Below, one piece after another: positions 30,977-48,429 of a DNA stretch of 64,000 nucleotides. The notes under the pieces are model-generated. The model ran no database searches. It was given only the letters and a program-made list of their open reading frames with translations, and was not told the origin of the DNA. Source of the DNA: Candidatus Thiodiazotropha sp. (ex Myrtea sp. 'scaly one' KF741663) (GTDB taxonomy: Bacteria > Pseudomonadota > Gammaproteobacteria > Chromatiales > Chromatiaceae); assembly GCA_025655555.1 (NCBI GenBank), contig JAHXIQ010000003.1:310001-374000 (forward strand), written 5' to 3'. A program made the position numbers and the translations under genes. Position 1 is the first letter of the stretch; the number at the start of each line of letters is the position of its first letter.

Positions 30977-31053
30977 TCTGTCCTTATGCAAACCGACGCT
31001 TATGAGAAGGTATACGTGGTTATACGATTTGATATGTCTGGGAAGTTGTAGAG

Positions 31054-33202: not shown

Positions 33203-33842
33203 ATCCAGACGCCAAATCTTAGATCGGCTCCGTGCTGTTAGTCGTGAGGAAGGGGGTGTGTTGCAGCGACGAGTGGATAGGCGGGTTTGGAATCAAGATG
33301 AAAAAGTGCAGAGATTCGCTGAATGTATGTCAGCTGTGCGTGCTGAGGTCTACCGAACCAGTGAGGTGAGTTGGGTTAATGATCTGCAGAGAATTCTAAA
33401 ATCTAAAGGCGCGGGGAATCTTCTCTATGCGCCTGCAAAAGCGCATGGAAAATTGTTACGGGAAGACTTGTCATCTAGTGGTATTGAGCTAGTGCCTTAT
33501 GATCTCGAAGTGGAGCGATGGAAAAGGCGGCTTTTTGAACAGATGGATGCCTCGATTACCGGGTGCCGTGGTGCCATCGCGGAGACCGGAAGCCTGATCC
33601 TATGGCCAGACGAGGATGAACCGCGCCTACTATCCCTGATTCCGCCCATTCATTGTGTTTTGTTGCGAGCCGAACAGATTTACAGCACTTTTTCAGAAGC
33701 GATCGATATACAGGGTTGGGCCGATGGTATGCCCACCAACGCTCTTTTGATTTCTGGGCCCTCCAAATCTGCAGATATTGCACAGGTGCTGGCCTATGGT
33801 GTGCATGGACCGAAATCACTGGTTATTTTGATTATCCCCTAG
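33195..33842 (+). CDS. lutC: L-lactate oxidation subunit LutC/YkgG
   Basis: LUD-domain subunit of the LutABC complex. The 215 aa contain the conserved GCRGAIAETGSLILW and PPIHCVLLRAEQI segments and end in the typical AYGVHGPKSLVILII. ATG 33195 overlaps the lutB stop by eight bases. An AT-rich non-coding stretch follows, before the riboswitch. Confidence 0.9.
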   Translation: MNESRRQILDRLRAVSREEGGVLQRRVDRRVWNQDEKVQRFAECMSAVRAEVYRTSEVSWVNDLQRILKSKGAGNLLYAPAKAHGKLLREDLSSSGIELVPYDLEVERWKRRLFEQMDASITGCRGAIAETGSLILWPDEDEPRLLSLIPPIHCVLLRAEQIYSTFSEAIDIQGWADGMPTNALLISGPSKSADIAQVLAYGVHGPKSLVILIIP

Positions 33843-34064
33843 ACATTTGATCTGCTTGTTCTATAGAGAATATTGATTAATTTATCCTCAGTATGTCCTA
33901 ATGTTTTAGCGGTATTTACTTGTTAAAAAACACTTTTTTCGTTTATTAACTGTTAAATGATGATATAAATTTCTCATATATTTGGCCAGTGAAAACATTT
34001 ACTAAAGTTACACAGTCACAGGCCGTTAAAACCAACAGAAGCATGTAATGATTTGCTTCTAAAC
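33843..34064. other. AT-rich gap after lutC
   Basis: This stretch is strikingly AT-rich compared with the lut genes and holds no gene. It should contain the promoter for the riboswitch-controlled gene, but no clear -35/-10 pair was resolved. It marks a composition change at the edge of the cytochrome region. Confidence 0.5.
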
Positions 34065-34160
34065 GTGTTCGAAAAGGCAAACCTGCCGAAAGGTAGGGAC
34101 GCAAAATCACAGTCTAAGGGTAGCTATATCGCCTATGACCGATGGATTGCCGAAACCGTG
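34065..34160 (+). promoter_or_regulatory. c-di-GMP-I (GEMM-I) riboswitch aptamer
   Basis: The diagnostic parts are present in order. GGCAAACC (34076-34083) leads into a stem CCTGCC/GGTAGG closed by a GAAA tetraloop (34088-34091), followed by GGGACGCAAA (34096-34105). The second arm carries the 11-nt tetraloop receptor as TCTAAG (34113-34118) and TATGA (34134-34138), then GACCGATGG (34137-34145), as in the Vibrio Vc2 aptamer. The base matching Vc2 G20 is G34076, which favours c-di-GMP over cGAMP. The outer P1 stem is less clear. Confidence 0.88.
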
Positions 34161-34240
34161 GCTCGCAACCGACACATCGCTGGTTGGTGTCATTTGTTGA
34201 TCACTGCACTTTCCTGCAGCGCGCGTCTTGTCAATTCGAA

Positions 34241-34260
34241 CTCCTATAACCGAATAGGAG
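34241..34260 (+). promoter_or_regulatory. Hairpin masking the ribosome-binding site (riboswitch expression platform)
   Basis: CTCCTAT (34241-34247) pairs perfectly with ATAGGAG (34254-34260) over a six-base loop. The right arm is the Shine-Dalgarno sequence of the gene starting at 34268, seven bases away. This suggests translational control; whether ligand opens or closes it cannot be told by eye. Confidence 0.65.
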
Positions 34261-34267
34261 AGTACAG

Positions 34268-34654
34268 ATGCGCATACCGACCAAATCACAATTTATCCTG
34301 CAAGGGCTGGCATTGATAATGATCAGTCTGGCAACAAATGCCATGGCAAGCGATAATTTCAACAAGCAAACTGGCAATGCGAATGTTCAAAAGCAATGGG
34401 TATGCGATTATACAAGAGCACAAAATGACGTGTTGTATTTACGTTGCGATGATATGGCAAGCCTACTGAATGATCCACTGATAATGGAAGAAGAGTATCA
34501 GGACAATGCAACAAAATTTATCCCTATCTGGCGCCGTCCGGATAATGAATCTTCTGCAGTCAAACTTGTTGAAGCCGTGTTATGCAACCAAAATATCCAG
34601 TGTAGCGTGCAACTGAAATCGCTATTTTCATCTGGAAGATTTGTTAATCGGTAG
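34268..34654 (+). CDS. Small secreted protein under riboswitch control, function unknown
   Basis: A 128-aa protein with an N-terminal signal peptide (LQGLALIMISLATNAMA, cut near residue 28). The mature part is polar and has four cysteines (WVCDY, LRCDD, VLCNQNIQCS) that could form two disulfides; no haem motif. I do not recognise the family. It is the only gene directly behind the c-di-GMP-I aptamer, so it is probably a surface or periplasmic factor of a c-di-GMP-dependent lifestyle. The ATG at 34268 is fixed by AGGAG at 34256-34260. Confidence 0.75.
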   Translation: MRIPTKSQFILQGLALIMISLATNAMASDNFNKQTGNANVQKQWVCDYTRAQNDVLYLRCDDMASLLNDPLIMEEEYQDNATKFIPIWRRPDNESSAVKLVEAVLCNQNIQCSVQLKSLFSSGRFVNR

Positions 34655-34822
34655 CATTGCGAATGTAGTTAGGTCTGGAGTGATCCTGTCATATGCTTGA
34701 ATTCTCAATAGTAGAAATGCGCAGGATGTTAGATTAAGTCAAAGGGTAAGGATCTAACATAACCTGCTGCATATTTATATCGGCTGAAAAGTTTACGACA
34801 GCCGATACAACCAGTTTTCTAC

Positions 34823-35980
34823 TTAGATATTTAACTTATATATTCCAACTTCCTCATACTCGTTTTCACCTATGGGCATTAATACAAGAAAGTAACCCTT
34901 CTTTAAAGTTTGGAAGGTCAATGCGTTAATATTTGATTCATGGGTGAGAATAACAAGATTGCCCTTGCCTGAAAATGATCCTATTTGCCGTTCTAGTTGT
35001 GTTTCATACGATTCTTTTTGGTCTTCAGGAAGGTTATTAGTGGATGCAAGATATTCCGCAGTTTCAGCCTGTCCGAATGCAGAATCAGCTGTCTCTTTGG
35101 CAAGGCAGTGAGGACTGGTCAAGACTTTATCTATCGGTACGCCTCTTGATTTAAATTGTTTCCCTATACTGACTGCCTGGGTTTTACCCATTTTAGATAT
35201 ATTTTCTGCGCTTCCACATGATGTGTCTTTGAGCAAAGAGCGTGTGCTGTCTTCATTCGTATCCATGGTGGGAGATCTTAATACTATAACAAAGCCTCCT
35301 TCCTCTAATTTTTCCCACACCTGATATAGCAGCCTGATATAGCTGACAATCCCATTAACCTCGCCTTGATTGAGAATGTCTCTCCACGCCGGCATAAAAC
35401 GTCCTTTTCCCTCAAGGATACTGCGGGCAAGATCTTCATTGCTTATCTTGTCAGTCCGTGCGGGATTGGTATGGTCAATAGGCTTCAATCCTATGAGATT
35501 GATCAAAACGCCTTTGCCATCTCCATCCTTACCGTGACAAATTGAACAATATTTCTGATATAGCTCCATACCTAATTCAGGATCACCAGTCAGCGTGTGT
35601 TTCGACGTGCTGAGAAACCGAAGATATGCAATCAATGTGGAGATCTGGTCGTTGCTGAATACATCTTTCCATTTTGGCATGTCATTACTGATCTGACCGT
35701 GACCGGATTCATCAGCGACATTTTCTCTGCCTTCGCCGGTAATGATTTTCATCAGAGCGATGTCACTGCGTGAACGAACGGTAGATGTCAGATCTTCAGC
35801 ATTGATTTCCATTTTTCGTGCGAGAGGCCCATTACCTTTTCCGTCAATCCCATGACAGATTAGGCAATGTGAAACATACAATTTTCTACCTTCAAAAGCA
35901 GGGGAAGCTGCAGCGAATGCGTTAGAGGTCAATGTGACCAGTAACAAGATTGAGGCCAACGATTGAGTCAGAATTTTCAT
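34823..35980 (-). CDS. Dihaem cytochrome c fused to a degenerate histidine-phosphatase domain
   Basis: Exported protein of 385 aa from ATG 35980, chosen because GGGG lies six bases before it and a signal peptide (MKILTQSLASILLLVTLTSNAFA) follows; longer starts at 36037 and 35986 exist. Two class I cytochrome c domains have haem sites C39-L-I-C42-H43 and C145-S-I-C148-H149, with likely axial Met in NDMPKW and RFMPAW. The C-terminal part (about 229-385) follows the histidine-phosphatase fold (VLRSPTMD, KVLTSPHC, VILTHESN), but the RHG motif has become R235-S-P, so the phospho-accepting His is lost. The second His (H347) remains. Phosphatase activity is unlikely. Confidence 0.8.
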   Translation of the reverse strand: MKILTQSLASILLLVTLTSNAFAAASPAFEGRKLYVSHCLICHGIDGKGNGPLARKMEINAEDLTSTVRSRSDIALMKIITGEGRENVADESGHGQISNDMPKWKDVFSNDQISTLIAYLRFLSTSKHTLTGDPELGMELYQKYCSICHGKDGDGKGVLINLIGLKPIDHTNPARTDKISNEDLARSILEGKGRFMPAWRDILNQGEVNGIVSYIRLLYQVWEKLEEGGFVIVLRSPTMDTNEDSTRSLLKDTSCGSAENISKMGKTQAVSIGKQFKSRGVPIDKVLTSPHCLAKETADSAFGQAETAEYLASTNNLPEDQKESYETQLERQIGSFSGKGNLVILTHESNINALTFQTLKKGYFLVLMPIGENEYEEVGIYKLNI

Positions 35981-36549
35981 AACCATCCCCGTAATGGAGT
36001 TATTCGTGTTGGATAAAAACACTCTTTGGACAAGCATTCAGGATAAGCATTATTCTAACTCACTAATATGAAGTCTCTGAGCACAATGCTTTTATCAGAA
36101 ATAAATTCTGATTTGAAAGTTGCAATAATTATGGTGTGCAGAGCAGAGGCCATTTAATGGTTATCCCGGTAGCAAATCACTCGTTTCTTTTTCTGTTATC
36201 CGTACATCAAGGCTTTGATATAACGCTATTTGCTCTTTAGCTATTCTAGCTTAAGAAGATATCTTAAGCTAAACCAAAGCATCTCTGGCACGAATAATCT
36301 ATAACATCAGATTGAACAGTATTTACATTTTATAATGAAGCAGTCGGCTTGTATTGAAATACAATACATACAATGCACTTATCTTAAGATTACATTAAGG
36401 AATTATTTGGTAATCTAAAGAAAGCCCGTTGTGCCAATAATAATTCTTGACCAAAGCATCTCTGCCAGCTATTTTTTCTTCGGCTATTATATATCTCTAA
36501 TGCACTCCATATTACTGAATAGTATCTTGCCAAAGGTTCACATATATAG
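35981..36549. other. AT-rich divergent intergenic region with CTTAAG motifs
   Basis: No gene is visible. A dyad AGCTTAAGA/TCTTAAGCT spans 36248-36270, with two CTTAAG hexamers at 36250-36255 and 36263-36268. A second site, CTTAAG-ATTAC-ATTAAG, lies at 36383-36399. Both are discussed as PmrA-like boxes and could serve either divergent cytochrome gene. Confidence 0.5.
36383..36399. promoter_or_regulatory. PmrA/QseB-like direct repeat upstream of a cytochrome gene
   Basis: CTTAAG (36383-36388), five bases, ATTAAG (36394-36399). The half-site spacing of 11 bp, one helical turn, is that used by OmpR/PhoB-family regulators; YTTAAK-N5-YTTAAK is the PmrA box as I recall it. It lies 150 bases before ATG 36550. 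Confidence 0.4.
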
Positions 36550-36882
36550 ATGTCAATAAAGCTGATAAATCTTACCGCCATACTTGTTATAAGTATTCAA
36601 ACATCCTGCCTCTATGCTGATGGAGGTGACCCTGCTAGAGGTAGAATGCTTGCTGAGAAGGATTGTGCAGACTGTCATGGTGACGATGGATTGGGTGATT
36701 ATGACAGACCACCAATTGCGGGTATGAATCCACAAAAACATTTGAAGGAGTTGATGGATTATAAAACCGGTAAGCGCATAGATGAAAATGATGATATGGA
36801 TGTTGCTGACCTGACTATGCAGGACATGGTTGATTTGGCAGCGTACTACGCTACTTTGCCGCCTCCAGCCAAGAAGAAGTAA
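36550..36882 (+). CDS. Monohaem class I cytochrome c
   Basis: Small exported electron carrier of 110 aa. A signal peptide (MSIKLINLTAILVISIQTSCLYA) is followed by DPARGRMLAEKDCADCHGDDG, giving one CXXCH site, and a likely axial Met in IAGMNPQ. The C-terminal helix MQDMVDLAAYYATLPP matches cytochrome c4/c553-type proteins. It converges on the multihaem operon and diverges from the dihaem fusion gene. Confidence 0.85.
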   Translation: MSIKLINLTAILVISIQTSCLYADGGDPARGRMLAEKDCADCHGDDGLGDYDRPPIAGMNPQKHLKELMDYKTGKRIDENDDMDVADLTMQDMVDLAAYYATLPPPAKKK

Positions 36883-36975
36883 AACAGATTTTATTCTACA
36901 CGCTGTAATTATCATGTTTTATTGAATACTTGGTAAAGATAAATATATTTCATTCTTTGAGTGCCATGGAAGGCT

Positions 36976-38769
36976 TCAATAATCAAAGCCATCATGTACT
37001 TCTCCATGGCAGTTTAGCCAGCATGTGCCATTGTGCACACCATTGTCTATCCAGGTGGGTTCGGTAAAGGCGCCAGCTCCTGTAATCTCTAGAACTTGCC
37101 CTGCCACATTGGAAGAGGTTAAGAAGTTGATCAAGTGCTGATTAGATGCGGAACCGTGTGGATCATGACAATTGATACAACCGGTATTTTGGTCGATGAC
37201 GTGTTTGGTATGGACAAACGATTGGTCCTGGTACAGGTTCCCTGAGTCATGACATTTGAAACAGAGTTCATTCGATAACGAAGTGGCATTTAACGGATCA
37301 AAATCGTAAGCCTGGGCAAGAATTCCTTCCTGAGATGAACCATGAGGACCGGCAGGTCCCGTTCCTCCGGCGGCGGGGGAGACATTGCTGCTATGGCAAT
37401 CGCTACAATAAATTTGGCCGCTGATGGTGCTCAGTGGGACATCAGCACGAAGGCTGGGCACTTCATTATTGTTATTGGGATTGTTAAGTTCGATTGGATG
37501 ATAGGAAACCAGTGCGGGATTTCCCGAGTTGACCTTGTCGCGTATGTTGTAAACACCATCTTGCCGAACCATATTGTAACTATCTGCGGTTGAACAACGT
37601 TGGGTATCACAAGCGCTCTTACCTGGGACGCCATGACATTTAAAGCAGACCTCGTACTCATAGTCTGCTTCAGTCTTAACGCTTCCGTTGATATCGATCC
37701 CTGTTACACCTGCCATGCTGCCGTTAACAAAAGGTGCGGTTGAGTGGTTCATGCTATTGGGATTGGTGGGATCGAATGAGATCATGGGTGGAGAGCTGAA
37801 GCTGGCATGTGGGTTATGGCAATCTTCACACTCTACATGTAGTGGCATGGTCAAGGGGTTTTCCACGCGTGAGGAGTCATGTCCAATGCTAGGCGTCTGT
37901 TCTACCGGATGGTGATAAAACCGCTGCTGTTCGGTCAATATATCTGTCTGCGCTACGGTTCCATTATGACAGAGGTAGCAGGTATCCTCTTCTTGCCCTT
38001 TGATGAGTCGCTCTGCTGTGACTGCATTATGGGGCGCATGACAATTCATGCAGGCATTTTCCTGTACTGTCTGTCCTGCCCATGCTGGTTTACGTTCTGC
38101 CCAGGGACTGGCACCCAATGGTGTGGCGGTTGAAGTCGCATGTGAGCTACCGCTCCAATTCCAACCTGTCCCTGTTGGCAGGTGGCAGGTGGTGCATAGC
38201 TCTCCGTTAAGTGTTGATTTGTGGAGAAAGGGCGGATGTATGTCCTCATGGGCGTCGTGACAGGACGAACAGTGAAGCTCGTTGTTTCTTAGTGGCAGAT
38301 CGACGTTGTTTGGGTGGATCAGGTCCGGATCGGTTGGCAGTAGGCTCGGATTGTATAGTATGGATACAGGATGATCATCGGAAAGATCAGTGCCGACAAG
38401 CGCGCGGCCGGTCACGAATGTACTGCCCAGATCATTGGTTACACTGGGGTTGACCATATCTCCCAGTGCTATGGTGCCGTCATGGCAGGAGAGACAAAGC
38501 ACGGAGGAGGAGCTCATGGTGCCAGCATCCGCATCTTTGGTGCTGCTTTGATAGTCGATATAGCCACCACCAGAGGGTCTGTTCCATAAAGGTGAATCGG
38601 GTGCTGCTGCGTGAGGCGTATGGCAGAAAACACAAATTCGATCTTCCGTTTGGCTCTTGACCAACCCAGGCCCTGAGATCGAGAGGTTATGTACCGTATC
38701 AGCCACACCGCCGAGCACGGCGCCGGATGCGATCATAAGACATACAGTGAGTAGAGAGACCTTTCGCAT
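36976..38769 (-). CDS. Multihaem cytochrome c, 11 CXXCH plus one CX3CH
   Basis: Exported protein of 597 aa, last gene of the operon. The haem motifs in order are CVFCH, CLSCH, CSSCH, CTTCH, CMNCH, CYLCH, CEDCH, CFKCH, CSDCH, CFKCH and CINCH, with CWLNCH at the C-terminus as a CX3CH variant. The first four repeat the layout of the tetrahaem protein at 42916 (HTPH with PLWN; LSCHDGT; GTDLSDDHPVS; CHDAHED with PPFL), so the protein looks like that module plus a longer haem chain. A further CDTQRC is not a haem site. It likely carries electrons at or beyond the outer membrane; that is inferred from the operon. Confidence 0.88.
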   Translation of the reverse strand: MRKVSLLTVCLMIASGAVLGGVADTVHNLSISGPGLVKSQTEDRICVFCHTPHAAAPDSPLWNRPSGGGYIDYQSSTKDADAGTMSSSSVLCLSCHDGTIALGDMVNPSVTNDLGSTFVTGRALVGTDLSDDHPVSILYNPSLLPTDPDLIHPNNVDLPLRNNELHCSSCHDAHEDIHPPFLHKSTLNGELCTTCHLPTGTGWNWSGSSHATSTATPLGASPWAERKPAWAGQTVQENACMNCHAPHNAVTAERLIKGQEEDTCYLCHNGTVAQTDILTEQQRFYHHPVEQTPSIGHDSSRVENPLTMPLHVECEDCHNPHASFSSPPMISFDPTNPNSMNHSTAPFVNGSMAGVTGIDINGSVKTEADYEYEVCFKCHGVPGKSACDTQRCSTADSYNMVRQDGVYNIRDKVNSGNPALVSYHPIELNNPNNNNEVPSLRADVPLSTISGQIYCSDCHSSNVSPAAGGTGPAGPHGSSQEGILAQAYDFDPLNATSLSNELCFKCHDSGNLYQDQSFVHTKHVIDQNTGCINCHDPHGSASNQHLINFLTSSNVAGQVLEITGAGAFTEPTWIDNGVHNGTCWLNCHGEVHDGFDY

Positions 38770-38770
38770 G

Positions 38771-39778
38771 TCACTTATCCACCTTCAGGTATTGAAAAAC
38801 CTGGATGCGTTGATTATAAGAGTCGGCCACAAATATTTTGTCATCCCAGATTGCAAGCCCTGAGGGCATACGAAAATTGCCGGGTTCATCACCGGTACCG
38901 CCGAACTCAAGCAGGAATATGCCGGTCTGATCAAAAATCTGAATTCTATTTGCCAAAGCGTCTGCCACGTAGATATGCCCATCAGAGTCGAGCGCAAGCC
39001 CCTTCGATTGTGTAAAGTAACCGGAAGCGTCGCCTTGTTTGCCGAATGTATGCAGATGGCGTATCTGGCTGTCAAAAGACTGGACTCTAAAATTCATGGT
39101 GTCGTTAACAAAAAGTCGTCCTTTTGAAAATGCTAAATGGCTGGGGAAATTAAACTGGATATCCTGATCGCCGCGTTCACCGATTTTAAATAAATAATTT
39201 CCATCAGAATCGAATACCTGTACTTCATGTGCCAGGGTATCTGCGATAAAGAGTCGCTCTTGTGTTGGATCGAAGGCGAGGCTGGTTGGGCGTTGAAAGT
39301 TCTCGATAACCAGCAACATTTCCAGACTTGAATTCAAAACGAACACTTTGTTCAATTTTGAATCGGCGATAAACAGCCTGTCATTTCCAAGTGAAACGCC
39401 AATGGGTGACTTGAGGCGATGAGTGCCGGCTTGATCGATCCTACGATAGGATTTCTTATCCATCTCAAACAGATGCACAACTGCTGCATCAGGATCTGCT
39501 ACTGCAATCGTTTCATCGTTTACGGCAATAGTGTATGGACGGGAGAGACTGTGCTCTTCACTTCCTGTGAAGAATTCAATAAATCTACGAAAAAAACTCT
39601 TTTTAAGTCCCAGATCCTCAGCATCCTTAAATGAAGTTATGAATTTAATTCTTGCTATTTCAGGTGTTGCTGGCCAAACCAGCTGTGTTCCATCACTCGG
39701 TTTGTCAAATGTCTGGGGTCCGGTTGACGAGCAGGCAACAAGCAACAGTGCGAGTAGCATGCCCAAGAATCTGGTCAC
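38771..39778 (-). CDS. NHL-repeat beta-propeller lipoprotein
   Basis: A 335-aa lipoprotein: signal peptide with lipobox LLVAC, then six NHL-type blades (for example AFSKGRLFVNDTMNFRVQSF, ALDSDGHIYVADALANRIQI and AIWDDKIFVADSYNQRIQVF). It may dock or order the cytochromes at the membrane. It overlaps the barrel gene upstream by four bases and lies one base before the 12-haem gene, so the three are translated together. The protein at 44110 is a paralogue. Confidence 0.88.
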   Translation of the reverse strand: MTRFLGMLLALLLVACSSTGPQTFDKPSDGTQLVWPATPEIARIKFITSFKDAEDLGLKKSFFRRFIEFFTGSEEHSLSRPYTIAVNDETIAVADPDAAVVHLFEMDKKSYRRIDQAGTHRLKSPIGVSLGNDRLFIADSKLNKVFVLNSSLEMLLVIENFQRPTSLAFDPTQERLFIADTLAHEVQVFDSDGNYLFKIGERGDQDIQFNFPSHLAFSKGRLFVNDTMNFRVQSFDSQIRHLHTFGKQGDASGYFTQSKGLALDSDGHIYVADALANRIQIFDQTGIFLLEFGGTGDEPGNFRMPSGLAIWDDKIFVADSYNQRIQVFQYLKVDK

Positions 39779-41790
39779 ATAATTCTCCGTTTTAAGGTAA
39801 ACATCAGCCTATCGTCTATCGTCTCAGTCGTCCCATTGGCAGTTGATCTGTCTACAGTGCGGCGATCGTGATGGTAGTTTAAGTCTAGATCGACTTTACG
39901 ATATCGCCAGCGGGCCCAGAAGCCGGCTGTGATGAATTGGTCATCCCGCTGGCCTCCGGTGATGGCGCTTCCCTCATCACGCCTTTTCCACGCACTTAAC
40001 ATTGGGCGGATTGAAAGGTTTTTACGCGGTTGCCAATTGGCCGTGAGATCGATCCGATAGAGGTCTGTATCCAGTGATTCCTGCTCAGTAAATGATTGCG
40101 TGGCATTCAAGTTCCAATGAATGCCTCTGGATTTGCCGTTTCCGGACGATGTCCAGGAGAAGAGTTGTCTGAAGGTGTATATCGTCGATTCGAATCCACC
40201 TGATAGCGTGAAACGTCTTTCTGCTCCCACAAGCGTGTCGATATTAGCCAGCTTTGAGTGGAATTCAATGTCTGTCAGGGTGTTGCGTGTATTCTGCAGA
40301 AAACTCTCACTGGCGCCGGAAATAAGTTTGTCATCGGATTTACTATCGGAGTGGGAGAAGCGTACCCAGTCATAATCAATTGAAAAATTATAGTGGGTAA
40401 AGGTGGTCGAAAATTCCTGTGACGGTAATTGCAGGGCGCTATAATTGACTAGAATGGTGTCGCCCGTGTTGATTCGTCCACCGGGAATGACTTGTAGTTG
40501 GGTGAGGTCACCTGACAGGCTTATTATGGTGTAATCTGTCCCCTCATCATAAACGACAGCGCCACTGCTATCGGTAACTATGATAGTACTGGCCACAATA
40601 AAGCGTTGGTCAAGAATGACTGCGCCTGTTAAGGGCACCACGTGACTCTCATCGATGATATCTACCAATCCGAGTTTTGAAATGCGATCTGTCTCCTGAT
40701 AGGAGGCCCCGAGCCCCCCCCTGACGTCTGCACCAAAAAGTTGGTTTTTGTTGTATTGTGTCTCAAGCCCAAAACGCCATCTGTCCTCTTCCACATTATC
40801 TGAGTCACGGGTATTGATATTGACATGGGCTGTCGTGTTTAAATTCTTGTAAAGCCGGTGATGCAATTCAAAATCACCACCATGCTCTTCATTCTCAATA
40901 GTCTGAGTAATGGATTGATAGTGATAGGAGGTACGGCTATATAGATTGTCCAGGTGCTGTATTCGCGCTGTTTCGTCAAGGGTCAGGCGCTCATTGGCAT
41001 TAAATCCTGTACGGTCGTAATAGTTGATGAGAGAGTGTAGCTGGCTATTTCTTCCCCAATTTAGATTATGAGAGATATTTGCTTTGTCCAACTCATAATC
41101 CTGATCACGAGTAATCACTCTGTCATCCAGGCTACCATGTTCCAGATGCACACTTAATTTGCTACTACGTCCTTTGAGGATTAAGCTTTCCAGAATTTCA
41201 TCACGCTCTGTCACTGCGCTGTTAAGGCTGGATCGGAATTCTTCATCCAGTGATTTTTTCTCGTAAGTTAAACTTGTGGGGAAAGCTGGATTTTTCCAGC
41301 GAACAGTTGCGTTCTTTGTGTCAATCACCGTGTCGTATCGACTGCCCAGAGAGCCTGTATTCAGGTTAGAACTTTTTTGCGCAGAAAGATCAAAGCCCAC
41401 GGGGCCCGGCGTACCCCGGAGCAGGTTGGTTTGAAAAAGATAATTCAGGAGTTCGCCATCGTTATCCTGCCGGGTATCAGTGGAGTCAAATTCACTCCAG
41501 GTGTAGACAGGCTCGATATCGATCAGAAACCAGGCAATCTCCGGGTCAAGGACATAGCCCATCTGTCCAATTCTCAGACCAGCCTCCCATTCGGTTTCGC
41601 GAGAGTCGCTGCCGTTGCGTCGATTGGTCCCGTCAAACTTGACTATTGCATCAAGCTCGGTTGGGTAGAGAACAATATTCTCCCCAAATTCAGCTTTGAT
41701 ACTCATTGTCCAAAACATGGTGAGCGTGAAAAGTAACCATGGATAAACTGGAGACTTCATGTTTTTTGGCATGGTCTCTTCCAGAGCCAT
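39775..41790 (-). CDS. Outer-membrane beta-barrel, candidate electron-conduit porin
   Basis: A 671-aa protein with a signal peptide (SPVYPWLLFTLTMFWTMSIKA) and long runs of alternating polar and hydrophobic residues ending in a charged strand (RLMFTLKRRIM), as in large outer-membrane barrels. A small beta-domain near residues 390-450 (TIIVTDSSGAVVYDEGTDYT) interrupts the strands. It lacks haem motifs and cysteines. By analogy with MtrB or OmbB it could sheath a cytochrome, but sequence kinship cannot be judged by eye. Start may be 41790, 41772 or 41760. Confidence 0.75.
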   Translation of the reverse strand: MALEETMPKNMKSPVYPWLLFTLTMFWTMSIKAEFGENIVLYPTELDAIVKFDGTNRRNGSDSRETEWEAGLRIGQMGYVLDPEIAWFLIDIEPVYTWSEFDSTDTRQDNDGELLNYLFQTNLLRGTPGPVGFDLSAQKSSNLNTGSLGSRYDTVIDTKNATVRWKNPAFPTSLTYEKKSLDEEFRSSLNSAVTERDEILESLILKGRSSKLSVHLEHGSLDDRVITRDQDYELDKANISHNLNWGRNSQLHSLINYYDRTGFNANERLTLDETARIQHLDNLYSRTSYHYQSITQTIENEEHGGDFELHHRLYKNLNTTAHVNINTRDSDNVEEDRWRFGLETQYNKNQLFGADVRGGLGASYQETDRISKLGLVDIIDESHVVPLTGAVILDQRFIVASTIIVTDSSGAVVYDEGTDYTIISLSGDLTQLQVIPGGRINTGDTILVNYSALQLPSQEFSTTFTHYNFSIDYDWVRFSHSDSKSDDKLISGASESFLQNTRNTLTDIEFHSKLANIDTLVGAERRFTLSGGFESTIYTFRQLFSWTSSGNGKSRGIHWNLNATQSFTEQESLDTDLYRIDLTANWQPRKNLSIRPMLSAWKRRDEGSAITGGQRDDQFITAGFWARWRYRKVDLDLNYHHDRRTVDRSTANGTTETIDDRLMFTLKRRIM

Positions 41791-41794
41791 GCTG

Positions 41795-42139
41795 TTATTT
41801 CTCGTTAATTAAATGACAGCGGTTACAGTTTGCAAAACCGTCATCAAAGGCCTCTGTGCCATTATGGCAAGTAGAGCAGACTTTCCCTTCTTTCATCAGG
41901 TCTTTATTAATCAGTGTAGTGCCTGTTTCCATCCCAAAAATCTTGTTATGGCAGGCATCACAGCGGTAGTTGATACGGTGTATCCAGTGGGGGAAAATCG
42001 AAGGTGGAAACGATTTCAATTTTTCCGGGTCTCCACCCTCGCGTGTATATTGGATATCTCCCGGAGCAGCTAAAAGTGACGTGCTGAATACAATAAAAAT
42101 CAGCAATATCGACAGTGGTTGACATCTATGCATACACAT
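41795..42139 (-). CDS. Trihaem c7-like cytochrome
   Basis: Exported protein of 114 aa with three haem sites, CDACH, CSTCH and CNRCH, arranged as in cytochrome c7-type triheme domains. FPHWIHRINYRCDACHN supplies the typical PH..H before the first site. A signal peptide (LSILLIFIVFSTSLLAAPG) is evident, so it is periplasmic or surface located. It lies four bases before the barrel gene and may deliver electrons to it. Confidence 0.88.
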   Translation of the reverse strand: MCMHRCQPLSILLIFIVFSTSLLAAPGDIQYTREGGDPEKLKSFPPSIFPHWIHRINYRCDACHNKIFGMETGTTLINKDLMKEGKVCSTCHNGTEAFDDGFANCNRCHLINEK

Positions 42140-42190
42140 ACCTTTAGCAATTGCACCGCTAAGCCGACAAAGCGGGTGCGTCGTAATTCT

Positions 42191-42895
42191 TCATTCTTCT
42201 TCTTCATCTTCGTCTTCATCTTCGTCCTCATCATCGCTGTTTAGATGACAGCGATCGCATGCTTTGAGAGAGAAGGACACCTTCTTTTTGCCATGGCAGG
42301 CGCCACAGGATACACCTTTCCTTTTCATCTCCTTCATCGTTGCCGGATTTCTTTTATAGGGATAAAGGGATGGATTGTGACAATTTTTACAGCCCAGCCA
42401 CTGAGTGTGGGCAGAGTGGGGGAAGAAGGCATCGTCCTCAGCCTCTTCTCCTTTGATGACGAAGTCCCACTGAAATGCTGTGGCCCACAGTGAACGGGGA
42501 TCTTTTCCCGGGCGTGGCCGTATCAGTCCCTGATCAAGCGCTGCGGACCAATTGACGTTTTTCTCATCGTCTTTGGGCAACATCTTCTCTACCCGGTCCC
42601 ATTCTTTGATTGACTCAATTTCAGGTCTTGGCGAAGTATCATCAGGTAGATCGAAAAGCATGCCCTTCGATCCGCTGGAGCGACTTTGCTTCAATTCCAT
42701 TGATTGGGCTTCGATTAATGCGGCCTGCTTCTGTAACTCCTGCTCAGCAAGCTCCTTAGGCGTTGGGGGGTGGATATCAAAGAAAATCTGTTTAGTCTTG
42801 GTGCTGCAAGCAGCAATGATCAGCAAGCATGTGAGAACCAGGGCAATCCGTATTACCCTGGTTCCCAGTTTCTGCTCATCCGCCTTGGTACTCAT
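42191..42895 (-). CDS. Trihaem cytochrome lipoprotein
   Basis: A 234-aa lipoprotein: hydrophobic leader with lipobox IIAAC, a polar linker of about 100 residues, then a c7-like domain with CKNCH, CGACH and CDRCH preceded by FFPHSAHTQWLGC. It ends in a run of Asp and Glu. The long linker after the lipid anchor could let the haem domain reach across the periplasm. Its C-terminal domain resembles the neighbouring 114-aa protein, suggesting duplication. Confidence 0.85.
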   Translation of the reverse strand: MSTKADEQKLGTRVIRIALVLTCLLIIAACSTKTKQIFFDIHPPTPKELAEQELQKQAALIEAQSMELKQSRSSGSKGMLFDLPDDTSPRPEIESIKEWDRVEKMLPKDDEKNVNWSAALDQGLIRPRPGKDPRSLWATAFQWDFVIKGEEAEDDAFFPHSAHTQWLGCKNCHNPSLYPYKRNPATMKEMKRKGVSCGACHGKKKVSFSLKACDRCHLNSDDEDEDEDEDEEEE

Positions 42896-42915
42896 AGGGC
42901 GAATCCTTCCTGAAA

Positions 42916-43536
42916 CTACTTAACGTGACAGGCCAGGCACAGCGCACTACCTGCATTACTCATGCGTAGAAATGGCTCATTTGTGTTGTCGTGTACAGAA
43001 TGGCAAGTACCGCACTCAACCTGATCGCCAGTCCCGCCGAACAGTTGTAACCCATTGACCTGTGAGCCCACGGGTGCAACGAAATCTGCATCCTGAGTGA
43101 CGTTGTAGGTCAGGGAGATTGGGTGGTCATTGCTAAGGTCGGTGCCAAGACCACCAACGGTAAAAATACCTGGTCCGCTGACACCGCTTGGATAGTTGAG
43201 AAGTTGGTCTGCAGCCACGGTTCCATCATGACAACTGAGGCATGCAAGAGAGACACCAGCTGGTGAGCCGGCAATGGTCATATCAAGCGAGGGACTGCTA
43301 TACATGGTGTATGTCGCTTGTGTGTCCTCATGGTTCCACAGTGGCGTTGTCGAGTTAGTAGCACTGGCGTCATGTGGGGTGTGACAGTATGCGCAGACTT
43401 GGGTATTACCGGCATTTGTCAACACTGTAGTATTGCTCGTCAAGTCATGAGATGTACCCACAATATCTGCGATTGCCGCAGTTCCAACTAGGCTAAGAGA
43501 TAAAGCAAGGAGCGCTAAGACAACTGTTTTTTTCAT
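42916..43536 (-). CDS. Tetrahaem cytochrome c, OmcE-like
   Basis: First gene of the operon, 206 aa with signal peptide (cut near AIA-D24). Four haem motifs: C48-AYCH, C99-LSCH, C175-GTCH and C200-LACH. Four further His (H30 in TSHD, H55 in CHTPH, H138 in NDHP, H182 in SVHD) are placed to be distal ligands, giving four bis-His haems. The order CHTPH...PLWN, CLSCHDGT, GTDLSNDHP, CHSVH...PFLR, NAGSALCLACH is what I recall of Geobacter OmcE, the tetrahaem protein that polymerises into filaments. Filament formation here is inference. Confidence 0.85.
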   Translation of the reverse strand: MKKTVVLALLALSLSLVGTAAIADIVGTSHDLTSNTTVLTNAGNTQVCAYCHTPHDASATNSTTPLWNHEDTQATYTMYSSPSLDMTIAGSPAGVSLACLSCHDGTVAADQLLNYPSGVSGPGIFTVGGLGTDLSNDHPISLTYNVTQDADFVAPVGSQVNGLQLFGGTGDQVECGTCHSVHDNTNEPFLRMSNAGSALCLACHVK

Positions 43537-43604
43537 TCCGATCCTCCGATTACAGATAGATAATGCACCAGTTCCATGTCAGTGCTGTAAGTCGATTTTT
43601 TATA

Positions 43605-43650
43605 CTTCTACTGCTAGGGGTGCTTCTACTGCTAGGTGCTGCTACTGCTT
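43605..43650. repeat. Imperfect 18-bp tandem repeat, about 2.5 copies
   Basis: CTTCTACTGCTAGGGGTG (43605-43622) is followed by CTTCTACTGCTAGGTGCT (43623-43640) and a partial GCTACTGCTT. It sits in the leader of the tetrahaem cytochrome gene, about 70-115 bases before the start. Confidence 0.7.
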
Positions 43651-43676
43651 TTTTATGATCAGCAGTTTTTTGTTTT

Positions 43677-43693
43677 CTTAAGGTTTGCTTAAG
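43677..43693. promoter_or_regulatory. PmrA/QseB-like box upstream of the cytochrome operon
   Basis: CTTAAG-GTTTG-CTTAAG: two perfect hexamers 11 bp apart. On the coding (minus) strand it reads CTTAAG-CAAAC-CTTAAG, 141 bases before the start at 43536. The flanks extend it to a nine-base dyad TTTCTTAAG/CTTAAGAAA. Confidence 0.5.
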
Positions 43694-44109
43694 AAATGGG
43701 ATATAATTCCCACAACTTTTAAAGAATATTAAGACAGCAATTTGTAATCGTCAATGATTGTTGTGAACTATTTCCTTGATGTTCCCAATAGGCTTTAAAT
43801 TCCTGGATTAAATACAGCGAATGCCAGCAATTGACTGACAATAATACTAGGAATATATATTTTGAATTTCTGACAATGGCGGGTCTTAACTTTCCAAGTT
43901 AATTGGCTTTGACGTGAAAGAGTCAATACAAATTATATTTTTTGTATTTAGCAGATTAGATATTCATTCATGTCGCCCAATTTAATCAACGACAGATAAA
44001 CTTCTCTGGGTGAGATATGCCCAGATCTTTCCTGGCTGTGTGAGATAGTCAGCGATTAAGGTGCGAGTGTTTTGAGCAACCTAACCATCTTCATGTAAGC
44101 CCTTAAGGG

Positions 44110-45201
44110 CTAATCAGAATCTCCCAGATACTCAAACATCTGTATCCTTAGGTTCAGTTGGTCTGCGATAAAGATCCGGTTGTTCTGGTCAACATGTGCG
44201 CCCGCTGGCAGGTAAAATCCACCCGGACCTGTGCCAGACCCACCTAGCGCCAACATCAGCTGGCCCTTCTGATTGAAAATTTGCACATTGTTGAATGCGG
44301 CATCTACCGTATAGATATGACCCTCGCTGTCAATGCCGATTCCTTTTAACCGGCTGAAATGGCCGCGCCCGTCGCCAAGTTTACCGAAGCTATTGATGTA
44401 TAGACCATTTTCATCAAGTATCTGAACACGGAAGTTCATCGTGTCGGCGACATAGAGGCGGCTGTCTTTGTCTATCGCAATATTAGTGGGAAAATTGAAA
44501 TCCCCGTCGTCGGCGCCACGTTTCCCTATAATGAAGTCCACTTCACCTTCCTGGTTGAACACAACTATCTGGTGTTTTTTTGAATCAACAACGTAAAGTC
44601 GTTGAGTCTTGTTGTTAAAAACGAGGCCAGCTGGAGAATCTAAGATATCTTTACCGCCTAGTGCATTCTGGAATTTACCTTCACTATCGTAAACCACTAC
44701 ACGATGATCAATGACATCGCTGACATACACGTTACCTACTGCGTCGGAGGTTACACCCGTGGGCTTCTTCAGCGTACCTGGTCCCGTATTGCCCCAATAA
44801 GTCATACTCTTCTTTTCGAGATCAAATACTACTAGACCAGCAATGCCGGTATCAGCAACGTAAACCCGTCCTTTTGAATCACTGTGTACCCCATAGGGTT
44901 TTGCAAGAACGAGGCGTTCTTCCTCTTTCTTTCCAAGGAACCAGTCGCGCAGACTCTGTTTTTGCTCTCCGGTGACAGATTCGGTCGATTTCAGACTGCC
45001 AAGATAACGAATTCGGGGTTTTTCCGGAGGTGCAGGCCATACAAACTTTTCTGCAGAATCGAGTTCAGTATTGGTGGATGGAGGATGGGAGGCACAGCCT
45101 GAAATCAGGCTGATAATGGCCGTGAGGTAAATTATCGATACCAACATTAGGCTCGGCTGATATAAGAAATTCGGGGAAAGTTTTGTCAGCTTTAGATTCA
45201 C
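44110..45201 (-). CDS. NHL-repeat beta-propeller lipoprotein, paralogue
   Basis: A 363-aa lipoprotein (lipobox LISGC near residue 36) with a short linker and six NHL blades, such as KGRVYVADTGIAGLVVFD, AIDKDSRLYVADTMNFRVQI and DSEGHIYTVDAAFNNVQIF. It shares the FVWPAPPEKPRIRYLGS-type N-terminus and the ADTMNFRVQ blade with the 38771 protein, so the two are paralogues. It is co-directional with the cytochrome operon but separated by 573 bases, so it probably has its own promoter. Confidence 0.87.
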   Translation of the reverse strand: MNLKLTKLSPNFLYQPSLMLVSIIYLTAIISLISGCASHPPSTNTELDSAEKFVWPAPPEKPRIRYLGSLKSTESVTGEQKQSLRDWFLGKKEEERLVLAKPYGVHSDSKGRVYVADTGIAGLVVFDLEKKSMTYWGNTGPGTLKKPTGVTSDAVGNVYVSDVIDHRVVVYDSEGKFQNALGGKDILDSPAGLVFNNKTQRLYVVDSKKHQIVVFNQEGEVDFIIGKRGADDGDFNFPTNIAIDKDSRLYVADTMNFRVQILDENGLYINSFGKLGDGRGHFSRLKGIGIDSEGHIYTVDAAFNNVQIFNQKGQLMLALGGSGTGPGGFYLPAGAHVDQNNRIFIADQLNLRIQMFEYLGDSD

Positions 45202-45431
45202 ATTTATCCTCCCAATGCATAGGGTGTCAACTGTTGTTTTGTATTTGAAGTGCTGATCCAGTACGCTTGAATGTATGGTAGCTTAACTCATGCGAGCCAG
45301 AAACCTAGCATGACATTTATCCATATATATAGGATCGAGTGCAACTGCCAAATAGAAATAAAAAAGCGCAATATCGCGATTGTCTAGTCGTCTGTTAGCC
45401 CGGTTCCAATGTTTTTTATTTTAAAATCACC
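45202..45431. other. Gap before the palindromic element
   Basis: No gene is visible. This stretch should contain the promoter of the 44110-45201 gene; none was resolved. Confidence 0.4.
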
Positions 45432-45700
45432 TAGGGCCTGTTAACACTAATCCAGTACGCCCTGTTGAGCCTGAAAAAGCGCCAATCAAGGCGCGAGGAG
45501 AGAAGTTTGGTTATTCCAAATGAATGACGAGTAACGCAGAGTGGCGCTTTTTCAGGCTCAACCCGAAGGGCTGGGGCTGTTTTTGCGCCCAGCGGCGTTA
45601 TCATTCGCTCATGTAGCCGGGCTACACCACACTCATTCTGCCTTGCTGGGCGCAAAAACAGCCCCAGCAGGGTGTACTGGATTAGTGTTAACAGGCCCTA
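45432..45700. mobile_element. 269-bp nested palindromic element (MITE-like)
   Basis: Outer arms of 32 bases (45432-45463 and 45669-45700) match at 31 positions. Inside are two perfect stem-loops: 20 bp (45464-45483 with 45543-45562) and 23 bp (45571-45593 with 45645-45667), each with an extra hairpin in its loop (TTTGG/CCAAA, GTAGCC/GGCTAC). CCCGAAGGG joins the two stems. There is no coding capacity. The left end reads CTAGGGCCTGTTAACAC. The element at 53115 has the same plan. Confidence 0.8.
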
Positions 45701-45756
45701 ATACTTACACAGAACGTGTCACGAATGGCTTTGTCCAAATGCACTAAGAGATATTT

Positions 45757-46482
45757 ATGAATAATTTTAGACCGATGGCATTATTACTCACTATTTTACT
45801 CTCTTTTTCAGCGGTTGTTGCTGACGAAGTGGGCACTGGATCGGGAACGGTAGCTGAGGTTATCGATGTGGGAAGTTATACTTATGTACAGTTAAGGGAG
45901 CAGGGCGTATGGATTGCGACCAGTCGTTTGTCGGCATCTGTGGGCGATAAAATCGAATATAGAGGCGGCATGGAGATGCGAGGATTTTACAGTAAAAAAC
46001 TGGATAGAAAGTTTGACTCCATTATCTTTGTGCAGATGGCAAACCGGGTAGGTGAGGATGCCGGAAACACTTTACATGGAAAGAAAAAAGGGGAAGGGCA
46101 CGGAACTGAAAGCTTGGTAACTCAAAGATCAACTTCGGTTCAGGTTCCTGTGCCCGGAGAGATTCCCCCGCTGCCTGATGGAATGACGATCGCCGATATC
46201 ATGGCACAAGCAACCCAGCTGAATGAGCAATCAGTGAGAGTTCGGGCAAGAGTCATTAAGGTGAGTCCAAATATTATGGGTAAGAACTGGATTACTCTGC
46301 GTGATGGGACCGGTACAACACCTGACGACAAGCTGATTGCGACATCTAAAGAAATGGTTTCGCCTGGTGAGCTGGTCATCGCAAAGGGTGTGATTAAGAA
46401 TGATATCGATATCGGGTCAGGATATCAGTATAAGGTTTTGCTTGAACAAGCAGAGTTTTCGAAAAGTGAAGCGGCCCCTTGA
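45757..46482 (+). CDS. Exported NrfJ-like / OB-fold protein
   Basis: A 241-aa exported protein with signal peptide (ALLLTILLSFSAVVA). The first domain (GTGSGTVAEVIDVGSYTYVQL, MEMRGFYSKKLDRKFDSIIF) resembles NrfJ-type proteins tied to cytochrome c nitrite reductase; the second (TIADIMAQATQLNEQSVRVR, GKNWITLRDGTG) looks like an OB fold. A His/Lys/Gly-rich stretch links them. It starts a plus-strand trio facing away from the cytochrome operon and may help cytochrome assembly; that is inferred from location. Confidence 0.72.
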   Translation: MNNFRPMALLLTILLSFSAVVADEVGTGSGTVAEVIDVGSYTYVQLREQGVWIATSRLSASVGDKIEYRGGMEMRGFYSKKLDRKFDSIIFVQMANRVGEDAGNTLHGKKKGEGHGTESLVTQRSTSVQVPVPGEIPPLPDGMTIADIMAQATQLNEQSVRVRARVIKVSPNIMGKNWITLRDGTGTTPDDKLIATSKEMVSPGELVIAKGVIKNDIDIGSGYQYKVLLEQAEFSKSEAAP

Positions 46483-46556
46483 TTGTATTGAGAACGCCTA
46501 CGTGAATGAAAGTGGTACAGACTCAGATCAATATCAACTTGCGATGCGAGAGGCAT

Positions 46557-47030
46557 ATGAGATATCAACAGCAGATTGTTTTTTTGATTGCGCTATTCAT
46601 ATTTCCATCCATTGTTACTGCTGATGCACCTGAAGGGTACCCGTTTGTTTCATTTGACCAGGCAATGGCACAGTCACAGAAGGAGTCGAAGCTACTGTTT
46701 GTCTATTTTGGTCGTTACGGCTGTGGCTATTGCGAAAAAACAAACCGGGAGTCTTTTATCGATCCGGAGGTTAAGCAACGCTATTCGGAACACTACGCGC
46801 TTGCCTATGTCGATGCTGAGAGCGGGAAACGTCTTCGTTTACCCAGTGGTGAGAGGATTACAGAACGTGATTTGGGCACACGCTACAATGCCCTGGTGAC
46901 ACCGGTATTTACCTTTCTCAATCCCGGAGGGGAACTCGTGTACCGCATGGTTGGCGTGCAACGTATCGAGGATCTGATCGATGCGGACGATAAGATACAA
47001 GCTGCGTTGGCAAAATCCGGGAAACAATGA
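46557..47030 (+). CDS. Periplasmic thioredoxin-like protein
   Basis: A 157-aa thioredoxin-fold protein with a signal peptide (QQIVFLIALFIFPSIVTA) and the active site CGYC in YFGRYGCGYCEKTNRESF. The cis-Pro loop is VTPVFTFL. It resembles SoxW or DUF255-like thioredoxins that reduce or repair cysteines in the periplasm, which would suit apocytochromes. ATG 46557 is chosen because the signal peptide follows; an upstream frame start at 46506 would bury it. It overlaps the next gene by four bases. Confidence 0.8.
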   Translation: MRYQQQIVFLIALFIFPSIVTADAPEGYPFVSFDQAMAQSQKESKLLFVYFGRYGCGYCEKTNRESFIDPEVKQRYSEHYALAYVDAESGKRLRLPSGERITERDLGTRYNALVTPVFTFLNPGGELVYRMVGVQRIEDLIDADDKIQAALAKSGKQ

Positions 47031-48265
47031 ATCGGATACTGACGCTGCTGTTGGTGGGCTTGGCACCATTGACGAGTGTATATGCCGAGCCGTGGCAATT
47101 CGAAGCCTCAATGGATGTGGCAACTGTAAGATCCGACCAGACTCGCAAGGTGTTCCATCATCTCGATTCTTCGGGCCGCCGTAATATTGCGGTGTCTTCA
47201 CAGGGTGTGGTTGTCGCCTGGGAGGATGATCGCGATGATACACCGCGTATTTATCTTGCATATAAAACTCATGATGCCGATCGTTTCGAAAAAGAGGTGA
47301 TGGTGAGTGGTGACGGCGAGGCCTATGAGCCTTCATTAGTCGCGTTAACGAACGACAGATTTGTGGTTGCCTGGGAAGAGGATGCCCATGTACTTGTACG
47401 AGTTGTTGATTTTAAAAAGACAGTCCATCTTGGACCTGTACATCAGCTAAGTGAGAAATCTGCTGCCCAGGTGCACCTGACAACGCAAAAAGCGGGTGTG
47501 ATCGCCCTGTGGTCAGAACGGGCAGGTCGTTATGGACAGATTCGTTTACGGAGAGTTTCGGTTGATTCAATAGGTTCATTGAAGCCTGGAACCGGCTGTC
47601 CAGTTGATGTGGTCACTCCAACAGATGAGCAGCTTTATCCATCGGCCACCTTAATAAATAACCGCCTGGTGGTTGCCTGGGAAGACCGCCGACCCAAGCA
47701 CACGATTATCATGGCAGCAGTAGAAACAGAAGGTGAGTTTTGTCGCTTTGGTAAGCCGGAACGCATCAGTGAAAAACCCGATGGACGTAATTTGCCTTTT
47801 GGTGCTGGACATGGGGTGTCACGGGTTGTATTGGGTCGGTATCAGGAGAGCGGTGTATTTGCTGCCTGGGCGGACAAGCGCGACTTTCGTGATGGCTATG
47901 ACATCTGGGGTGCGGATTTTTCCCACCAGGAGGAGCGCTTTGGCAGCAATGTTAAAGTGCAGGATGATTTTGGCGGTCTCTCCAAACAACGTCATGCCAC
48001 TCTGGATGGACATGCGAATGGGATGTTGGTAGTTGCCTGGGATGATGAGAGAGAAGGCCATACCGATGTGGCGTTAAGCTGGCTTGAGGGGGGTGAGTGG
48101 AGTGATGATTGGCTGCTGCCTGTGGCGTCTGGTGAGGGTGAGCAGAGTAACCCCAGTATCGTTTTAGATGAAAATGGAAACCTGCATATCGCCTGGGTGG
48201 AACGTACTGAACCCGGTGGTGCCACCCGTCTGAAATACGCCTTCGGAGGGTTAGTGCTCGATTAG
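47027..48265 (+). CDS. Exported beta-propeller protein
   Basis: A 412-aa exported protein (signal peptide MNRILTLLLVGLAPLTSVYA) made of repeats of the form VVVAWEDDRDD, FVVAWEED, LVVAWEDRRP, VFAAWADKRD, LVVAWDDERE and LHIAWVERTE, a propeller of six or seven blades. No enzyme signature was seen. It is translationally coupled to the thioredoxin-like gene. Propellers recur three times in this island, suggesting scaffolding of redox proteins. Confidence 0.75.
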   Translation: MNRILTLLLVGLAPLTSVYAEPWQFEASMDVATVRSDQTRKVFHHLDSSGRRNIAVSSQGVVVAWEDDRDDTPRIYLAYKTHDADRFEKEVMVSGDGEAYEPSLVALTNDRFVVAWEEDAHVLVRVVDFKKTVHLGPVHQLSEKSAAQVHLTTQKAGVIALWSERAGRYGQIRLRRVSVDSIGSLKPGTGCPVDVVTPTDEQLYPSATLINNRLVVAWEDRRPKHTIIMAAVETEGEFCRFGKPERISEKPDGRNLPFGAGHGVSRVVLGRYQESGVFAAWADKRDFRDGYDIWGADFSHQEERFGSNVKVQDDFGGLSKQRHATLDGHANGMLVVAWDDEREGHTDVALSWLEGGEWSDDWLLPVASGEGEQSNPSIVLDENGNLHIAWVERTEPGGATRLKYAFGGLVLD

Positions 48266-48369
48266 TCCAGTCAATGCAACCTTCAGTTTTGTATTGACTG
48301 ATCTTTATATCCGTATGGCTTTAATGTCATCTGCGGGTGAATAGGTTGTATAAGTACGACTAGTGAATC

Positions 48370-48398
48370 AAAAAAAAAAGCCCCGGAAAACCGGGGCT
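48370..48398 (-). terminator. Rho-independent terminator of the 48430-50250 gene
   Basis: Read on the minus strand, AGCCCCGG-TTTT-CCGGGGCT is followed by ten T residues (48370-48379 on the plus strand are A). The eight-pair GC stem and T run are textbook. It lies 31 bases after the stop of the tetrahaem c554-like gene. Confidence 0.9.
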
Positions 48399-48429
48399 AA
48401 ATTGCGTACTTCCTTGCTCTGGAGGAATA

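Follow-up and report, generated by a model that had tools for sequence, protein, structure and literature searches.

The window analysed here is a 64,000 nt stretch from Candidatus (Ca.) Thiodiazotropha sp. (ex Myrtea sp. 'scaly one' KF741663), a genus of clam symbionts in the Sedimenticolaceae, Gammaproteobacteria (contig JAHXIQ010000003.1, positions 310,001 to 374,000). Its minus strand carries a compact unit of cytochrome, barrel-type and lipoprotein genes (Table 1), which probably encodes an extracellular electron conduit resembling the Uet system described in Tenderiales (PMC10734462). An earlier note on this DNA had proposed a six-gene operon of this kind with a cytochrome like the filament protein OmcE. 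All six minus-strand open reading frames (ORFs) were found, and the motif counts were as claimed for the cysteine-free large barrel-type ORF, the trihaem lipoprotein, the trihaem c7-like protein, the NHL lipoprotein and the 11/12-haem ORF. The unit itself has seven genes and not six, because a second NHL lipoprotein gene, 573 bp upstream of the six-gene block, lies ahead of the operon in those window-type relatives that have sequence there (L031-L034, L036 and L037; L035 ends at a contig edge before it). Read from the tetrahaem gene to the gene of the multihaem protein, called J below, the spacings were +20, +51, +4, -4 and +1 bp, and the six products contained 4, 3, 3, 0, 0 and 11 CXXCH motifs, with one additional CX3CH site (CWLNCH) in J. 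The two trihaem genes were the only three-haem ORFs in the whole window. DNA patterns for C-x-x-C-H were counted genome-wide at 348+430 versus 99+84 for a reversed control pattern, which is not specific to the operon. Promoter-like sites showed no excess (15 versus 15.6 in shuffles) and were not used; terminator-like sites (13 versus 7.7 in shuffles, sd 2.7) were scattered and were not used as evidence either.

Table 1. Genes of the conduit unit and its cytochrome neighbours (window positions)
Feature	Coordinates	Strand	Main evidence
OmcE-like tetrahaem cytochrome (UetA-like), 206 aa, candidate filament subunit	42916..43536	-	PDB 7TFS match, E 7.1e-35
Trihaem c7 lipoprotein with long linker (UetD/E/G-like), 234 codons	42191..42895	-	TIGR04257, E 9e-16, above cut-off
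Soluble trihaem c7 protein (UetD/E/G-like), 114 codons	41795..42139	-	TIGR04257, E 2e-17, above cut-off
Outer-membrane barrel candidate, 671 aa, cysteine-free, remote UetC relative	39775..41790	-	Profile match to UetC-position barrels
NHL six-bladed-propeller lipoprotein (UetI-like), 335 codons, lipobox LVAC	38771..39778	-	NHL, E 2e-28
J, 11+1-haem cytochrome (UetJ-like), 597 aa: OmcE-like four-haem module (~residues 1-196) plus eight haem sites	36976..38769	-	7TFS, E 2.4e-26
NHL six-bladed-propeller lipoprotein (UetH-like), lipobox ISGC; opens the conserved unit	44110..45201	-	NHL, E 5e-26
Monohaem cytochrome c, convergent neighbour, possible periplasmic carrier	36550..36882	+	PF00034
Dihaem cytochrome c with histidine-phosphatase-like C-terminus, neighbour, possible periplasmic carrier	34823..36037	-	PF13442; below-cut-off PRK06193 and SixA matches

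The OmcE likeness of the tetrahaem protein, which the earlier note had read from the order of its haem motifs, extended over the full length when the protein was compared with solved structures by phmmer. Residues 5-206 aligned to residues 7-232 of 7TFS, the OmcE filament of Geobacter sulfurreducens (PMC12954529), with 78 of 183 aligned positions identical (~43%). A second solved relative, 9YUQ, matched over the whole length (E 5.6e-29), and the next match was at E 0.8. The distal histidines H30, H55, H138 and H182 and the four haem-motif histidines were the same in OmcE and 9YUQ. Among 26 stand-alone relatives, seven of these ligands were kept in every row and the N-terminal one in 25, the miss being a contig-cut row. 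The chain ends in CHVK, two residues past haem 4, and such a CHxK end was found in 26/26 stand-alone rows including OmcE and 9YUQ. In a wider set it was kept in 49/50 four-haem rows, the exception being a contig-cut fused protein with the fused pattern W-A-S-S-A-H past haem 4. Seven rows (five-haem proteins or matches to another part) had been dropped before the 26-row count and the tree below, and the rows include the window itself; a few genes entered more than once, from two collections. As open frames, the stand-alone relatives ranged from 205 to 309 residues. An AlphaFold model from seven aligned proteins was unusable (mean predicted local distance difference test score, pLDDT, 34.8), and no conclusion was drawn from it. 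From this homology the tetrahaem protein is likely to form filaments. L066 and L067 (G006) encode additional stand-alone OmcE-like proteins; these have five CXXCH motifs, and two that lie on one contig are very similar. PDB 9YUQ is a 16-chain entry titled putative multiheme cytochrome c, and a literature search found no paper naming it.

The same module was present in J. Residues 7-196 of J matched OmcE, indicating that its first four haems form an OmcE-like subunit fused to the remaining haem sites. The module came first in 51/51 J proteins, although these had been selected by at least eight haems and an OmcE-like or J profile match, so that this count holds partly by construction. A W-x(1-6)-H motif between haems 4 and 5 was also found in 51/51, which does not follow from the selection, though the proteins are kin by descent; shuffled haem 4-5 segments contained it in 37%. 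In the other inter-haem gaps the motif occurred in 0 to 3 of the 51 proteins, except past haem 9 (37/51). Given that the fused modules kept all four distal histidines (22/22 rows) in addition to the W-x-H, J carries one histidine beyond the need of its four haems. The CX3CH haem site was invariant in seven aligned proteins.

A tree of 46 modules separated fused from stand-alone rows with 2 label changes, compared with 15.4 on shuffling (0/500 as low). OmcE and 9YUQ fell among 24 stand-alone rows (support 86/88), and the misfit row was contig-cut with a very long branch. Each kind stood in one piece in just 21% of 200 bootstrap trees, leaving a single origin of either unproven. We read the stand-alone and J-borne modules as old partners that have persisted across cluster types.

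Profile searches assigned both trihaem proteins to TIGR04257 and the propeller proteins to NHL, the subunit-by-subunit check that the earlier note had suggested. The trihaem lipoprotein shared 31% identity across 165 positions with one of the trihaem proteins in a congener's cluster (E 9e-19), and the soluble trihaem protein 37% across 105 positions with a trihaem protein of L062 (E 7e-20); both E values refer to single comparisons. By a simple pattern, a lipobox was detected in 17/18 rows of the trihaem lipoprotein, 16/18 of the in-operon NHL protein and 10/11 of the upstream NHL protein, counts that include the window itself and some repeated genomes. For the barrel candidate, a profile of 13 own-kind rows (two of them pieces of one interrupted gene in L036) was compared with a profile of 34 barrels at the UetC position, giving a probability of 97.4% and E 1e-11 against 0.6% for the control. 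These values point to a remote relationship with the UetC-position barrels. The C-terminal residue was F in 8/13 own-kind rows and M in the window protein. In the Escarpia laminata symbiont the barrel frame is interrupted (L036, 10851-11049), possibly by assembly error or decay.

In the published description, Uet comprises the undecahaem UetJ, the extracellular tetrahaem UetA, the trihaem UetDEG, the peptidyl-prolyl isomerase (PPIase) UetB, the NHL proteins UetHI and the barrel UetC (PMC10734462); the cluster was named uetABCDEFGHIJ (PMC12575090). The window has a tetrahaem UetA-like protein, two NHL proteins and an undecahaem UetJ-like protein in one cluster, a barrel that is remotely related to UetC by profile-profile comparison, and two trihaem proteins where Uet has three (D, E and G). 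Two congeners (G004 and G010) carry the window-type genes together with a separate cluster of the order A-PPIase-barrel-3-3-F-F-3-3-NHL-J, where 3 denotes a trihaem gene. The A, D, E and J proteins of the window were homologous to parts of this cluster, as was the barrel by profile; J was 27% identical to the congener's UetJ (E 2e-51 as a single comparison). No match to the congener's PPIase or F proteins was found in window positions 30001-50000, the part of the genome that was searched. The F position is named for tetratricopeptide repeats after the papers; in Pfam one of the congener's F proteins gave a below-cut-off match and the other none. As the window's cluster has neither UetB nor UetF and only two trihaem genes, we regard it from its gene content as a compact Uet-like variant and not Uet proper; it is not a new kind of system. 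The Uet-type cluster of L062 is followed by two ORFs that resemble ResB/CcsA by eye.

With the barrel as query, seven named loci were found as relatives. By best-segment identity, four belong to Ca. Thiodiazotropha (97, 85, 83 and 73%), and those outside the genus are symbionts of Lamellibrachia anaximandri (66%) and Escarpia laminata (67%) and a Xanthomonadales metagenome-assembled genome (46%). The order NHL-tetrahaem-3-3-barrel-NHL-J was complete in five of the seven and interrupted by contig ends in two, and such conservation indicates that the operon is more than a chance arrangement. Among 22 genomes of the genus, the window's included, 12 had a close tetrahaem gene (at least 68% identity), two had a distant one only (G006 and G017) and eight gave no match. 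The endolucinida locus L032 contained both the tetrahaem gene and J. The earlier note had thought a complete set unusual for a gammaproteobacterium. This was not borne out, since 52 of 369 sampled gammaproteobacterial genomes contained an OmcE-like domain and 22 had the exact Uet gene order on one strand by our labels. The window-type barrel profile matched in 10/369, one of them marginal.

Labelling of 58 loci, including the window, gave 33 of type 2, eight of a third type, four of the window type, six that bear J but were left untyped and seven without a complete J. Type 2, which requires only J and a PPIase or F match (the barrel is often an unmatched ORF of fitting length), occurred in 31/369 genomes; its loci had the PPIase in 29/33 and the F protein in 32/33. 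Of the genomes with an OmcE-like domain, 47/52 were labelled (G111, G121, G127, G224 and G009 were left out), with J in 43 and the tetrahaem gene and J in one stretch in 38; the class-sample loci had been fetched mainly where a J-like frame had been seen. The third type, tetrahaem-NHL-barrel-NHL-J, was found in L050, L052, L053, L054, L056, L057, L068 and L070. Proteins with 8, 7 and 3 haems come after J in L052, L053, L054 and L057, and two of the loci (L056 and L057) lie in genomes of the window's genus.

Other haem proteins lie close to the unit. The monohaem neighbour adjoined it in L031, L032, L033, L035 and L036 and was not seen in L037, and the dihaem neighbour adjoined it in L031-L033, L035 and L036. 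In the latter, a histidine-phosphatase-like domain follows a pair of class-I cytochrome c domains; this unusual combination is kept beside the unit in five named relatives. About 3 kb from the unit, a further tetrahaem protein of 606 aa (48430-50250, minus strand) matched Cytochrome_C7 and consists of four CXXCH motifs and a long C-terminal part without haem motifs.

The gene content, its order, its conservation and its homology to Uet parts and to OmcE were all observed, and on this basis we consider it probable that the operon encodes a compact extracellular electron conduit of the Uet type. The proposal of an electron conduit in the earlier note is upheld to that extent: the gene set is homologous to a published, predicted conduit, and the barrel candidate is remotely related to UetC. 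We infer the path, the occupant of the barrel, polymerisation and direction as follows. Electrons would be exchanged between periplasmic cytochromes, perhaps the two neighbours, and the two trihaem c7 proteins. These would connect to the large barrel, which is likely to house the C-terminal, eight-haem part of J, and from there the path may lead through the OmcE-like module of J to an extracellular polymer of the tetrahaem protein. For the two NHL lipoproteins, a role in outer-membrane assembly or docking is probable.

Filaments of OmcE and OmcS contain a haem whose ligand histidine comes from the neighbouring subunit (PMC9473688; PMC12954529). The extra histidine of J may stand in for this neighbour-subunit histidine, in which case J would be a one-ended subunit and the seat of the wire, a membrane-side adaptor for the filament. 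Tentatively, we propose that an OmcE-type nanowire might be seated on UetJ. In this view UetJ would begin with an OmcE-like subunit that is joined in cis to a trans-membrane haem chain, W-x-H would replace the neighbour's histidine, and the N-terminal histidine arm would remain available as a ligand for the terminal haem of the UetA filament. By analogy with OmcS, the N-terminal histidine is presumed here to be the interface-crossing ligand.

Several observations weigh against a conduit of clean Uet type. The barrel matched no Pfam family, and its sole match in NCBIfam, to a phage tail-tube model, reached 28.7 of 60 bits, far below the cut-off, and was ignored. A smaller test, a seven-row barrel profile against the congener's single UetC, failed (probability 1.5%). 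The AlphaFold model of the barrel from seven aligned proteins was unusable (mean pLDDT 39.3), and the strand-periodicity score was weak (z 2.5, with controls up to 1.9 and the congener's UetC at 1.5). Moreover, the cluster lacks UetB, UetF and the third trihaem gene; residues 373-541 of J matched PF22113 (MtrC/MtrF domain II/IV) at 39.2 bits, above the cut-off of 30; and Uet is itself a prediction, no experiment on a Uet protein having been found in the available parts of the papers that describe it (PMC10734462; PMC12575090).

The PF22113 match, the presence of a barrel and multihaem cytochromes in one operon, and a below-cut-off match of J to decahaem DmsE-family cytochromes (65.2 versus 192.2 bits) would agree with an MtrCAB/Pcc-type conduit that has an unrelated small cytochrome beside it. 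We find this very improbable, because searches of Pfam and NCBIfam at E 0.01 gave no MtrB/PioB match for the barrel and the whole block fits the parts and order of Uet instead. J itself matches the MtrC-like domain and opens with an OmcE-like module. Even less credence is given to a decayed or non-functional Uet remnant, as might be suspected from the missing uet genes, the eight congeneric genomes without an OmcE-like match and the interrupted barrel frame of one tubeworm symbiont, since the window frames are all intact with gaps of at most 51 bp, the ligands are conserved and distant genomes (L037 and L048) contain this compact set as well. A conduit that is real but whose OmcE-like protein serves as a soluble or surface-bound tetrahaem carrier without polymerising is a possibility we rate as doubtful. 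Homology speaks for fold and not for assembly, and the stand-alone relatives vary in length; against this, the closest solved relative is a filament (PMC12954529), 9YUQ holds 16 chains in one entry, and the ligand set and the conserved chain end two residues past haem 4 match OmcE.

For the direction of flow, electron uptake by an autotroph is favoured, with discharge nearly as likely. Three trihaem genes of Ca. Tenderia, which we take to be uetDEG by their locus tags, were among its most expressed on a cathode (PMC5371394). Discharge, in which Fe(III), Mn or a partner cell would serve as acceptor in anaerobic respiration, falls somewhat short of an even chance in our judgement: in Geobacter, OmcE takes part in passing electrons to insoluble Fe(III) and Mn(IV) (PMC9473688), and undecahaem cytochromes are reported from a manganese-reducing Dechloromonas (PMC13264449), but the organism from which Uet was described is a cathode electroautotroph and iron oxidisers carry it too (PMC10734462, PMC5371394, PMC12575090), Ca. 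Thiodiazotropha are described as sulfur-oxidising chemosynthetic symbionts, and Cyc2 orthologues are reported in lucinid symbionts (PMC12442345).

In this arrangement a single operon holds a filament-type subunit, a barrel and a protein in which the subunit's module is fused to further haems. Since the pairing of subunit and fused module recurs in three cluster types, the joint between them is directly testable. If J is the seat of a nanowire, one operon would supply filament, adaptor and conduit and would explain the electrical link between a cytochrome nanowire and its cell. An electron-conduit operon is now placed in Ca. Thiodiazotropha and tubeworm symbionts; in the literature on Thiodiazotropha, 'multiheme' was not found among the matches listed, and 'extracellular electron' occurred in a mangrove-community paper only. 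As far as a limited literature search reaches, the J-borne OmcE-like module is new. No discussion linking OmcE with Uet or undecahaem proteins was found, though the OmcE likeness of UetA, or the OmcE module of UetJ, may already be described in the original Uet paper. In the available text of the papers concerned, OmcE stands in the references only (PMC12575090) or is mentioned only as not investigated (PMC13264449), and the words 'OmcE' and 'undecaheme' both occur in PMC12203936.

Compared with known systems, the tetrahaem protein shares with the OmcE filament (7TFS) whole-length homology, four CXXCH motifs, four distal histidines and the CHxK C-terminus, whereas it shares an operon with barrel and conduit genes, differs at more than half of the aligned positions and is a putative filament subunit. 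MtrCAB and other porin-cytochrome systems likewise combine a barrel with multihaem cytochromes, and part of J fits their MtrC/MtrF model; unlike them, the window unit has no decahaem MtrA-like gene and its barrel has no MtrB/PioB match. The OetABI conduit, with OmcX/OmcS-like filaments in partners of anaerobic methanotrophic archaea (ANME) (PMC10553843), also unites a porin-cytochrome conduit and a putative filament cytochrome in one cassette, but its filament is of the OmcS type and not the OmcE type, and it is likened here by description. With Uet, as in Ca. Tenderia electrophaga and Gallionella, the unit has in common the tetrahaem A, barrel C, trihaem c7 D/E/G, two NHL proteins H/I and undecahaem J. 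In addition to the missing B, F and third trihaem genes, it departs from Uet in its gene order (H-A-D-E-C-I-J), in a barrel that is only remotely similar and in its J protein, which has a twelfth haem site of the CX3CH type and 597 aa versus 798 aa in the congener's cluster.

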